Assembly: GCA_951802425.1 (NCBI GenBank)
Contig: OX637800.1
Span: 2,232,001 to 2,296,000 of the forward strand
Source of the DNA: Clavaria fumosa
Lineage: Eukaryota; Basidiomycota; Agaricomycetes; Agaricales; Clavariaceae
DNA: 64,000 nucleotides
Direction: 5' to 3'
Positions 34,870 to 63,254 of the stretch are shown here, in pieces (the first letter of the stretch is position 1; the number at the start of each line of letters is the position of its first letter). Under the pieces are notes generated by a model. That model was not told where the DNA came from and made no database searches. It saw nothing but the letters and a program-made list of their open reading frames with translations. The translations under genes were made by a program, and so were the position numbers.

Positions 34870-35429
34870 GTCTCCGGTGATTACTAGGGACACTGCCTCT
34901 TCCCAATACTTAGAAGCACCTGCATGTATGGAATGACCCCTTTCATTGTTAAGATTGTTTCATGATCTCAATCTGAAATGTAAGGAAGGTAGATGTATGA
35001 CGAAGAAGGGAAGCAGAAAATAGTAAAGGGAGGATGATGACAGTTATACTCTGATTCTGTGTCCTTACTTTAATTTTACCACTGTGTTGTCAATTTGCCA
35101 ATTTTCCAAATGACTAGAACAAAGTCAACCATTTTGTAGATACTAATATATCTGCTTCCCAGATTTTCCTGTAGCTTGAAAATGGTTTGGTTGACCCTGA
35201 ACAATTATGGACCCATGGTATTGCCACTGAATAAAGGAGGCAGCACCTGTGGCTCTGGTATTATGTCTGTAATAAGTAAGGAACAACAAAAACCCTTGCA
35301 GATGCTGCAAGGAGTAAGCACAGGGGTTGAGGCCAACTCAGTTGAGTGGTTGAAAGCTGTTAGAATATGTTAGAACACCTTCACCTACTCCACCTGTCAC
35401 CCACAGTCACATTCATCCTTGCCTACTCT
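34870..35429. other. No gene seen
   Basis: AT-rich intergenic sequence downstream of the NTPase gene. Short frames only. Confidence 0.5.
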
Positions 35430-44384: not shown

Positions 44385-44610
44385 CTTCTGTGGTTTCTGA
44401 GTTTAAAAATGAAACTGTGGATTGGGTGCCAAGAAATTTCCACTGCACTCACACCCACAGTAAATTGGGTAAAATCACCAAAATATTAATATAAAATAAC
44501 CTGATGAGTGTCTACCTACTGTCAAAGTTTTGTGAGATTCCATGCAGTGGCTGTTGAGATATGAATGAAACATTAATTGTCTCAAAGAGGAAGGATTTTA
44601 CTGCCATAAT

Positions 44611-44718
44611 CAACACCCAACTTCCTATTGGATCAGACCATATAGCTCAGTGGTTAAGAACAAGTCTGGAAGGAAGGTCTTGGGTTCAATCCCTGATGTG
44701 GCCCTTTTTCTGACTTAG
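44611..44718 (+). repeat. tRNA-like SINE/TRIM-LTR fragment
   Basis: Shares caacacccaacttcctattg, the A box TAGCTCAGTGG, the B box GGGTTCAATCCC and a T5 run with the LTRs of the TRIM at 60767-61412, but has a different anticodon region and is diverged. It is either a truncated TRIM LTR or a SINE with a common ancestor. Confidence 0.7.
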
Positions 44719-58966: not shown

Positions 58967-60894
58967 GTGCTAAAGCCGGATCCGTGTACATCATCCCCGC
59001 CCTGCGCCATGTAAACCAGTTACGCAATGAAATGCCTTTGTTCCCCTTGTCCAAGGAGGCTGAGAGGGCCAAGCACACCCTCAAGGACCTCACCCCTAAG
59101 AAATTACCCGGATATAATGATGAAGTACATTGGGATTCTGATCCAAGAACCAAGTATGGGAAAGGGGGAGAACAGCAGTTAGACGTATGGGGGTATGTAA
59201 CCACCCTGGACACAAGGGAAATCCACGACGTCAAACTGCTTATCGATTCCGGATGCACCATGTCAGTCATGGACCTAGAATGGGCACTTAACAAAAAAAT
59301 GAACCTCACGAAACTCGAGACCCCTGTAATCTTCAAGAATATTGACGGAACCACGAATGCTTGCGGAACTTTCAGACATTTGGTAGCGCTCCGCCTCAAT
59401 ATTGGAGGACATGTAGAAATCAAACAATTCCTACTGGGCCGAATCAGTGGACACCATGCAGTCTTGGGACACGAATGGCTCCGACATCACAACCCACAGA
59501 TCCGGTGGGCTGAGAAGTACATCTGTTTTGACTGATGTAAAAAGAAAGACTGCCACATTGTGGACTATGGGTATAGTTTCCAGAAGTCTCGCACTACCGT
59601 CATGGCCCCTGATTGGAAGGCCCTGTACCCACAGGTATTTGCCAGAAAGTCCTCCCAGAAACTGCCAAAGTCCCTACCAGGAGTGGACTACAAGATTAAA
59701 TTCAAGAATGACCCTGGATTCTTATGCTCTAAGGTCTACCCACTCACTTGGAAGGAGGAAGAAGCTCTGAAAGCTTGGCTAAAGGAAAACTTGGAGAATG
59801 GACGGCTGGAATGAGGAGAATCTGACTATGTCAGCCCCATCTTCTTCAAGGACGAAGGCAACAAACTAAGGCCAATCATCGACTATAAACGCCTCAATTC
59901 CTACTGCGTTAAGGACATATACCCTCTACCCAGAATTGACGAGACAGTGGGAAGCCTGAGGAAATCCAAATTCTTCTCAAGCCTTGACATAGAATGGGGC
60001 TATTGGAATGTTGCTATGGCCAGATGGGCACGAAAGTACGCCGCCATCATCACCAAACTCGGAACGGTACTCCCCAACATGATGCAATTTGGCTTGATGA
60101 ACGCCCCTTCCGTCTTCCAGCGTCGAATGAACTTCATCCTACGCAAGCTCGTATCCACAGGAAAAGTGTTTGTTTACATCGATGACATCCTTGTAGCGAC
60201 AGAAACAGTGGAGGAACACCAGCAACTACTACACGAAGTGTTCAGGATACTCCGGGAAAACGATCTCTGTGTCAGAGAATCGAAGTGCAAGTTAGAACAA
60301 ACAGAAGTCACCTTCCTGGGACTGCTAATCTCAGAAGGGAGCATCCGACATTCTCCAAAAAAATGCAGAGGAATAGCCGATTGGCCTACCCCAAGAGACA
60401 AGCAGGCCCTCCAATGAGGGATAGGCCTACTAAACTACTTTCGAAGGTTCATACAAGGGTTTGCCACCATCGCCAAGCCCCTCTATGAATTGCTATGCGA
60501 CGGAGCTCCTTATACCTGGACAGAACAGCAGCAAAACACTTGGGAGCAACTGATTGGTATACTACAGAGTGATGTAGTACTAGCCATACCCCAGGACAAA
60601 GGAAAATGGAGGGTGGAAGTGGATGCCAGCAATTACGCTACTGGAGGAGTGTTATCGCAGCAGCAACCAGATGGCGTATGGCGCCCCATCGACTTCATTT
60701 CGAAATCTTTCTCCCCGGCAGAGATGAACTATGCCACTTACAACAAGGAGTTCCTGGCGATAATCCTGTTAGGTTGTAATGTGTCAACCAACAGTTCAGG
60801 GTGCCCCTCAATTGGGTGGGTTGGGCTTAGGAGGAGGAGGCACCAGTTCACTGAACTTGGGTACTTAACCAACACCCAACTTCCTATTGGATCA

Positions 60895-60973
60895 GACCAT
60901 ATAGCTCAGTGGTTAAGAGCACCCGTCATGAATCTGGGAGGTCCTGGGTTCAATTCCCTGTGTGGTCACTTTT
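60895..60973 (+). promoter_or_regulatory. tRNA-like Pol III unit in the TRIM 5' LTR
   Basis: GACCATA pairs with TGTGGTC over 7 bp as an acceptor stem. D-arm TAGCTCAGTGGTTAAGAGC (A box) with a GCTC/GAGC stem, B box GGGTTCAATTCC, and a TTTT terminator at 60970-60973. Because it repeats exactly in the other LTR it is part of the element and not an independent tRNA gene. Confidence 0.8.
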
Positions 60974-61322
60974 CTTACTTAACAGATTATGAGACCCGGT
61001 GCTTAAGGCCCATGTCTGCTGATGTAAGAAAGGTGCCTGAAGTCATGTGACCTTGTGAAGGTTGTGTTGTCATGTGACTTTGATTCACATGACCTTCCTT
61101 CACATGGCCTGTAGCTGAGTTCTGTCATGTGAGACATATATTCCACATGACCTCCGCAGGCATTTGTCATGTGACTTGCCACATTAGGGGGAAGTGTTAG
61201 GTTGTAATGTGTCAACCAACAGTTCAGGGTGCCCCTCAATTGGGTGGGTTGGGCTTAGGAGGAGGAGGCACCAGTTCACTGAACTTGGGTACTTAACCAA
61301 CACCCAACTTCCTATTGGATCA

Positions 61323-61401
61323 GACCATATAGCTCAGTGGTTAAGAGCACCCGTCATGAATCTGGGAGGTCCTGGGTTCAATTCCCTGTGTGGTCACTTT
61401 T
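61323..61401 (+). promoter_or_regulatory. tRNA-like Pol III unit in the TRIM 3' LTR
   Basis: Identical copy, 428 bp downstream, of the unit at 60895-60973. Confidence 0.8.
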
Positions 61402-63254
61402 CTTACTTAACAAATCCGAGGCCTAGAAGAATGGCGCCACTACCTCTTGGGCGTCAAAGAACCTTTCGAAATACATCCCGACCATGCCAACCTCCAATAT
61501 TTTCAAAAAAGCCAAAAGCTTAACCCCTGCCAGACTTGCTGGCATTCGAAACTTCAATGCTTCAACTTCGAAGTAAAGTATAAACCCGGAAAGACTAATA
61601 TGAAAGCAGATACCCTGTCCCGACGGCTGGACCACTGGAACAATGCCAATAAATATGAAAACCCTACGGTTCAAGTTTTTCCGATCCAACAGCTCGCAGC
61701 TTTGCTCATCCCAGGACCGACTATTGACCAGTTACTGGTGGAAGCCCACAGTATTGGAGTTCCCCCAACTTCAATACCCTACAAGAGGGGAGACAACGGA
61801 CTATACAGGAACGAAGAAAAAATATGGGTACCACCAAACTTGGTGCATGAAGTACTCCTTGAGCTGCATGACTCGCCACTAGGAGGACACCCTGGTCCTG
61901 AGAAAACTCTAGAGAGTGTCTCCTGACAATTCACATGGCCAGGCATGAAACAAGATGTGGAAGACTATGTACGAGGATGCGAAAAATGCCAACGATCCAA
62001 GCCGGACCAAACAAAACGACGCACCCCCTTACACCCACACTCGATTCCGTTACAACCGTGGCATACCATTACCTGGGACATGATTGGGCCACTGCCAAAA
62101 TCTGCAACCCACGACTGTATCTTGGTGATATGTGACAAGATGACCAAAATGACCCTGCTGGAAGCCACGGACACTAAATTTACAGCTCTGGGAGCCGCCA
62201 AGATCTTGCGCGACCGAGTTCTCCAGAGCCACAGAGTCCCTTGCAAAGTCATCAGTGACCGGGGTTCCCAATTCGTCTCAAACTTCATGGAAGAATTCTA
62301 TAAGATCGTTGGTATAAAAGGTAATCCTAGCACTGCCTACCACCCACAAACTGACAGCCAAACCGAAAGAATGAACCAAGAAATTGAGGTGTATCTATGC
62401 GCCTATGTGGACTTCATGCAGCATGATTGGTCTGAATGGTTAGCCACGGCAGAGTTCGCCCTAAATAACCGACAACATTCCTCTACAAAATTCTCACCTT
62501 TCTTCCTCAACTATGGACTCCACCCTAGAATGGGAAATATCAGCATACCGGTTACTATGCATGCCCCGGAAGCTTCGGATTTCGCTAAGAAACTACAGAA
62601 GTCACGCGAAAAAGCAAGGGAAGCTATGGAGAAGGCAGCCCAATATATGAAAACTGCCTACAATAAACACAAAAATACTAAAACACTGGAGTACAAGAAG
62701 GGAAACCTGGTCTGGCTGGACTCCGAGAACCTAAACACAGAACGGCCTTCGGAGAAGCTCGCAGACAAAAGGGTGGGACCCTTCGCAATAATCGAGAAGG
62801 TCGGGGCCTCCGCCTATCGCCTGGATCTACCCCCAACTTGGAAGATTCACCCAGTATTTAATGAGGTGTTACTCACACCATACATAGAAGGATGGTTTCC
62901 AAATCAAGAACCAGACAAACGCCCGCCGCCGGAACTCATCGACGAACACCTACAGTACAACGTGGAAGAAGTCCTAAAGAGCCGCAAACGCAGATGCAAA
63001 ATACAATACCTTGTCAAATGGACCAGCTATCCCCACAAGGACAACACGTGGGAACCGAAGACGAACCTGAAAGATGCCGCGGACGCAATCGCAGACTTCC
63101 ACCGCAAGAACCCGCAAGCAGCACAGGCCTTATCTGTCAGGTTCGCGTAATACTCCCATGACCCCACAACCCTGCAAGAAGAAAAAGACATATAAAAACA
63201 CCCCATACCACACGACCCATCCGATCAAACCCCCTTATCTCCCCACCATTCCAG

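Follow-up and report, generated by a model that had tools for sequence, protein, structure and literature searches.

Helenus elements are terminal-repeat retrotransposons in miniature (TRIMs) that carry a transfer RNA (tRNA)-like unit in their long terminal repeats (LTRs). They have been described from fungi, animals and a plant (Kojima 2024, PMC10886601), with Pucciniales, Agaricus bisporus, Coprinopsis cinerea, Amylostereum areolatum, animals and Selaginella given as hosts. Helenus has been little studied, and this paper is the one primary description among the literature that we searched. In its account, fungal Helenus elements have 5-bp target-site duplications (TSDs), a primer-binding site (PBS) directed mostly at the anticodon loop and an inferred Copia partner, and their transcription by RNA polymerase III (Pol III) is stated to be unvalidated. 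The sole Helenus–Copia pair presented there shares internal similarity and none in the LTR, and a long LTR stretch common to both is considered unlikely. For many Helenus families a disagreement between the anticodon and the isotype model is also described. Here we describe a complete 646-bp TRIM at positions 60767–61412 of a 64,000-nucleotide stretch (the window) of contig OX637800.1 (C7 below) of the basidiomycete Clavaria fumosa.

Like the fungal Helenus elements of PMC10886601, this TRIM is shorter than 1 kb and has a box-bearing tRNA-like unit in each LTR, a polypurine tract (PPT), a 5-bp TSD and a PBS on the anticodon arm of the initiator methionine tRNA (tRNA-iMet). As reported there, several families occur in one genome and their units are picked up by tRNA prediction. 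The Clavaria elements are unlike Helenus as set out in that paper in two respects: they show LTR switches with coding Copia elements at the PBS, and one family clusters in a single zone on each contig that carries it; the string 'centromer' has no match in its main text. A first-pass annotation of the window had named Cassandra as the only comparable concept, a view now superseded, since Helenus is the same kind of element. Cassandra of plants is also a TRIM whose LTR contains a Pol III promoter derived from a small RNA, but the promoter is that of 5S ribosomal RNA (rRNA) and not a tRNA-like unit in a fungus (PMC10886601). Ajax of nemerteans shares the TRIM structure, the Pol III-type promoter in the LTR and the 5-bp TSD, yet is an animal element, derived from 5S rRNA and primed by the 3' end of tRNA-Leu (PMC10886601). 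Short interspersed nuclear elements (SINEs) lack LTRs and are mobilised by long interspersed nuclear elements, whereas the present element has LTRs, a PBS, a PPT and a 5-bp TSD. By the sequence criteria tested, and with the published families compared by description, it is a further member of Helenus.

All the features of a TRIM were found (two LTRs, PBS, PPT, length below 1 kb, no transposition proteins), and they are arranged as follows, in window positions:

60762–60766, no strand: TSD AATCC, 5' copy; present as a single copy at two empty sites
60767–60984, plus strand: 5' LTR, 218 bp, TG...CA, identical to the 3' LTR
60895–60968, plus strand: tRNA-like unit of the 5' LTR (RF00005, 52.2 bits; ARAGORN)
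60902–60912, plus strand: A box of the 5' LTR, TAGCTCAGTGG
60947–60957, plus strand: B box of the 5' LTR, GGTTCAATTCC
60970–60973, plus strand: run of four T (T4) in the 5' LTR, possibly a weak Pol III terminator
60985–60998, plus strand: PBS, complementary to 14 nt of the host tRNA-iMet anticodon arm
60985–61194, plus strand: internal region, 210 bp, without coding capacity for transposition proteins
61183–61194, plus strand: PPT ATTAGGGGGAAG, read directly from the sequence
61195–61412, plus strand: 3' LTR, 218 bp
61323–61396, plus strand: tRNA-like unit of the 3' LTR (RF00005; ARAGORN)
61398–61401, plus strand: T4 run in the 3' LTR, where the genomic RNA is predicted to end
61413–61417, no strand: TSD AATCC, 3' copy
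44607–44717, plus strand: degenerate LTR relative, 85% identical to LTR positions 100–215

The two LTRs (60767–60984 and 61195–61412) are identical across 218 bp, starting with TGTTAGG and ending in TTAACA. Between them the internal region begins with the PBS (GATTATGAGACCCG) and finishes with the PPT. A box, B box and T4 run were found in both LTRs, as the first-pass annotation had stated, the boxes of the 3' LTR lying at 61330 and 61375. Five open reading frames of at least 40 amino acids overlap the element; one (78 amino acids, minus strand) is wholly internal and four extend into the flanks. The insertion interrupts a Gypsy pol gene, whose reading frame is open once the two flanks are joined. 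In a protein search, a Gypsy open reading frame of the window had a best match of 91%; named matches included Lentinula, Termitomyces, Trametes, Microbotryum, Berkeleyomyces and the alga Closterium. Joined across the insertion, 100 flank bases are 100% identical to L110 and 99% identical to L111, two empty sites on the same contig; the flanks and the empty-site copies are 99.0–99.4% identical across 0.9–1.1 kb on each side. These two sites prove the boundaries of the element and, with its anatomy, confirm the complete TRIM with identical LTRs, TG...CA ends, PPT and TSD that had been annotated.

Parts of the surrounding segment are present three times on C7 at a spacing of about 69–70 kb, seemingly as three copies in a row, the third of them partly inside the window. 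The copies are marked by C7:2137717, 2206690 and 2276607 (the last equals window position 44607) and by Gypsy matches at C7:2144024, 2212992 and 2282887; the pieces compared are 98.0–99.8% identical. Because the other two copies of the segment are the empty sites, the insertion is most simply taken as younger than the segment duplication, with which the identical LTRs agree. The element is real, well bounded and recent. We consider it probable that it is a young, non-autonomous Helenus-type TRIM ('TRIMp3') moved in trans by proteins of the Copia superfamily.

We searched the whole genome (48.76 Mb, 17 contigs) for the LTR; 41 matches were listed, with 40 of 45 candidates scored, and copy counts are lower bounds. 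The family of the element (family A) comprises at least 15 full-length LTRs at 98% identity or more, the window pair included. They belong to two complete elements (four LTRs), one element with a broken internal region and ten solo LTRs, which together with one truncated LTR make 14 loci among the matches listed. A perfect 5-bp TSD flanks both complete elements and eight of the ten solo LTRs, the exceptions being C1:1969019 and C10:1381616; the family has thus multiplied in the manner of an LTR element. Related copies form family B (six LTR places), a single LTR on C13 and decayed copies on C7, C8 and C9; two decayed LTR copies at C9:3088218–3088475 stand inverted, head to head. At a C10 locus (L076, C10:3147600–3149900) an internal region of the A/B type lies behind LTR-like sequence, and ARAGORN found no tRNA in the locus. 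L076-like sequence (87%), followed by a PBS, also occurs about 1 kb from the tRNA-bearing C13 LTR.

Twelve further places match the unit only, at 83–86%, and are read by ARAGORN as Thr-TGT. One pair of them forms a complete TRIM on C1 with the TSD TGTGG and LTRs of 263 and 240 bp, three of the remaining copies are solo LTRs with a 5-bp TSD, and others lack a clear TSD or boundary. Shared flanks, together with PBS, PPT and TSDs at several places, rule out that these 'tRNA-Thr(TGT)' places are host parent genes; the same sequence features show them to be LTRs of a second Helenus family, called Thr-like here. At a third Thr-like TRIM (L107, C4:278300–280300) the 5' side has a different LTR-like end (..CTAGTCAACA), and a 32-bp stretch of this locus is 91% identical to window 35287–35318. 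Thirty of the 61 scored Rfam tRNA matches fall in Helenus LTRs (63 of 1999 candidates were scored), and tRNA genes counted automatically in this genome would therefore be too many.

The 74-nt unit in each LTR reached 52.2 bits with the tRNA model RF00005 (gathering score 29; E 2.5e-8 for the whole window), far above chance. Among the Rfam models run across the window only RF00005 attained its gathering score, and the 5S rRNA that marks Cassandra was not found at that level. ARAGORN assigned both units to 'tRNA-Ser(TGA)'. TAGCTCAGTGG contains TRGCY and YGG, and GGTTCAATTCC contains GGTTC, as described for boxes A and B of Helenus (PMC10886601). Both boxes are intact in 13 of the 15 full-length family A LTRs; of the other two, one has a 2-nt gap in box A and one a substitution in box B. 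When one LTR each of family A, family B, C13 and the Thr-like family was compared, identity was 85–96% in the unit and 53–81% in the upstream (U3 side) sequence, where the best of 100 shuffles per pair gave up to 56%; the LTR starts of B and C13 were set by eye. As aligned here, no other part of the LTR is conserved between families as well as the unit, which fits a role of the unit as a Pol III promoter. We infer from the conserved boxes that the LTR contains a tRNA-type Pol III promoter, as had been proposed in the first-pass annotation. Runs of at least four T occur in the element only at 60970 and 61398, just 3' of each unit, and likewise T4 runs lie only just after the unit in the complete Thr-like TRIM and in the B and C13 LTRs.

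Pol III transcription is the likely reason for the tRNA-like unit, as far as sequence can tell. The A and B boxes of the 5' LTR unit would recruit Pol III, which would start near 60895, where the R region is predicted to begin. In some of the rounds the polymerase would read through the weak T4 at 60970 and then stop at the T4 of the 3' LTR; the resulting RNA, about 507 nt long, would have a tRNA-like unit at either end, serving as R. Several observations weigh against this account. Read-through must be assumed, since a T4 run directly follows the unit of the 5' LTR too. The scarcity of T runs was rejected as proof of Pol III transcription, as two runs against a shuffle mean of 3.11 are not significant (P(≤2)=0.36). 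Stem covariation could not serve as support either; the stems of the units showed no two-sided compensatory base change, so that it is simpler to suppose that selection acts on the boxes and not on the fold.

The T4 run of the 5' LTR, which could halt Pol III early, would also suit an ordinary TRIM transcribed by RNA polymerase II, in which U3 drives transcription and the unit is a passenger or acts in chromatin by binding TFIIIC. Such an element would further agree with the motif ATTGG (an inverted CCAAT) 9–16 nt upstream of the unit in all four LTR families, and with the C10 relative L076, whose internal region is of the same kind and in whose locus ARAGORN found no tRNA. One would not, however, expect a passenger to be conserved better than any other part of the LTR, and we regard this alternative as unlikely. 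Far less probable is a chance insertion of a SINE into one LTR of an unrelated TRIM, which would make the element a one-off hybrid. The first-pass annotation had considered a separate SINE inserted once, and the genome-wide search did not find this: the unit is carried by 15/15 full-length LTRs of family A, 6/6 places of family B, the C13 LTR and 12/12 Thr-like places, and sits near the 3' end of the LTR in each of them. Unit-bearing copies in four families refute a recent event of this kind. For Helenus generally, an origin by SINE insertion has been proposed (PMC10886601), and an ancient SINE origin of the unit is possible.

To return to the proposed model of a Pol III-transcribed, Copia-mobilised TRIM, the PBS of the element points to a host primer. 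The host tRNA-iMet gene lies at C5:812654–812725 (L092) and pairs with the family A PBS over 14 contiguous nt at −34.6 kcal/mol. Across families the contiguous pairing spans 14 nt in each of A and B, and 16 nt for Thr-like (−33.0 to −35.3 kcal/mol). tRNA-iMet was the best PBS partner among 30 host tRNAs tested, the next best reaching −23.7 to −24.7 kcal/mol; a pattern search for a host elongator tRNA-Met gave no match. Priming by a tRNA-iMet half is the best reading of this complementarity. A cleaved host tRNA-iMet, with its 3' end in the anticodon arm, would prime the minus strand at the PBS, the PPT would prime the plus strand, and the integrase of a Copia element, the presumed partner of family A, would insert the complementary DNA with a 5-bp TSD.

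That the unit itself serves as the reverse-transcription primer, the tRNA mimicry suggested in the first-pass annotation, has a negligible chance of being right. Six contiguous nucleotides complementary to the unit are present at PBS position 14, adjoining the iMet match, and the family B PBS outdoes 177 of 200 shuffled versions in pairing with that family's unit. Shuffled PBS nevertheless paired as well in 62/200 cases for family A, 23/200 for B and 160/200 for the Thr-like family, while the host tRNA-iMet pairs over 14–16 contiguous nt, and we rejected the unit as primer on both counts.

The annotated near-cloverleaf held as far as tRNA likeness goes, given the RF00005 score, and needs qualifying in its details. 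The minimum-energy fold of the unit beats 197 of 200 dinucleotide shuffles (z −2.22) and is not a cloverleaf. All four families (A, B, C13 and Thr-like) have an A at anticodon-loop position 33. In tRNAs, the base 5' of the anticodon is U. The family A unit further has two mismatched stem pairs, and its anticodon loop is enlarged by two nucleotides in 4 of the 15 full-length LTRs. Because of A33, the mismatched pairs, the enlarged loop and the non-cloverleaf fold, the unit is unlikely to act as a working tRNA. The idea that the element spreads a family of functional tRNA genes deserves hardly any credence: 52.2 bits does fall within the 45.7–68.2 range of the 31 scored matches outside these LTRs, but these same defects stand against it and the closest of 30 host tRNAs compared is only 68% identical.

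The PBS is common to Helenus and Copia families. Its 15-nt pattern had 206 genome matches at one mismatch or fewer, and the reversed pattern had none. Among 30 loci inspected, two were Helenus (L050, L060); most of the others resemble another locus in the set in an LTR-like sequence that reaches to the PBS, and four belong to a Copia family, Copia X. At two loci the LTR and the body behind the PBS match different families. At C7:595507 (L070, minus strand) a 225-bp Thr-like LTR directly abuts the PBS, and 133 bp past it stands a 1194-amino-acid open frame with a Copia reverse transcriptase. This internal part is 99.3% identical to the Copia X copy L058 across 1515 bp; the L058 LTR had no significant match in the locus (best E 0.28), and a Copia 3' part and 3' LTR were not found within 8 kb. 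An established family of coding Copia elements that bear an LTR of Pol III type was rejected for now, as the four other Copia X copies examined (L045, L047, L058, L065) differ in LTR, theirs being 358–368 bp long. The reverse arrangement is found at C6:650000–652500 (L108/L109). There the 3' end of Copia X, with its PPT, leads into a Copia X LTR of 358 bp (97.5% to L045), which is followed directly by the PBS, then by a Thr-like TRIM internal region (97.7%) that terminates in a Thr-like LTR. The 5' part of this Copia X is interrupted by other repeat sequence.

These are two clear LTR switches, one in each direction, both exactly at the LTR/PBS border, which is the site of plus-strand transfer (PMC10886601). 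Since both junctions fall where this transfer takes place, template switching between co-packaged RNAs would be the simplest reading of their origin; the C6 junction additionally needs a plus strand begun upstream of the PPT. Either junction may instead come from DNA recombination within the 14 shared bases or from an assembly error.

The 14 family A loci lie on eight contigs, in one short zone per contig. Four contigs carry several of these loci, and there the summed span is 57,819 bp, compared with at least 628,526 bp in 20,000 random placements. On the eight contigs, 4/4 family B, 3/5 decayed and 0/6 Thr-like loci were within 150 kb of the zone; contigs without family A hold one B, one decayed/C13 and five Thr-like loci. 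Of the Copia RVT_2 matches (150 of 376 candidates scored), 21/114 on the eight contigs were within 150 kb of the zones, where 7.8% are expected by length. The proportion was 12/22 among the 29 best-scoring and 9/92 among the other 121, with the cut at 29 chosen after the list had been seen. For Gypsy RNase H (150 of 1604 candidates scored) it was 13/91 on the same contigs, where length alone predicts 7.1. Transposable elements are thus somewhat enriched in general around the zones, and clustering as mere transposable-element density is weakened as an explanation.

One zone per contig, partly common to Copia copies, suggests that the zones may be centromeres. In Ganoderma leucocontextum, Copia elements and solo LTRs of GlCEN427 are reported to occur only in centromeric regions (PMC10817607). 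The present case is similar in that Copia-type LTR elements and solo LTRs are involved in an agaricomycete; it differs in that GlCEN427 codes for proteins and has no tRNA-like unit mentioned in the text available from that paper, and in that the zones here are only putative centromeres. Targeting of Pol III genes is a possible alternative route to the zones, by analogy with Schizosaccharomyces japonicus, in which an LTR element reaches centromeres in this way (PMC4600332).

Taken together, the junctions and zones lead us to a tentative proposal, which we hold at somewhat less than even odds: tRNA-bearing LTRs would be exchangeable modules, passed on by mixed reverse transcription with co-packaged Copia RNA, and family A would owe its zones to a centromere-targeting Copia. 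With the iMet-half PBS shared, Helenus plus-strand strong-stop DNA would jump to a Copia minus strand, or the reverse. Against this it must be said that both clear junctions belong to the Thr-like sister family and not to family A.

This genome adds to Helenus an element of very recent insertion with two clean empty sites, as well as a sister family at two junctions with a coding Copia, and it cautions annotators that tRNA predictions may be Helenus LTRs. It makes testable, in one genome, whether Pol III transcribes elements with tRNA-bearing LTRs and which proteins move them. If the exchange proposal is true, it placed a Pol III-type LTR before a coding Copia on C7 and a Copia LTR before a Helenus body on C6. 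LTR exchange would then physically name the mobilising partner, and Helenus families could arise repeatedly without new SINE insertions.

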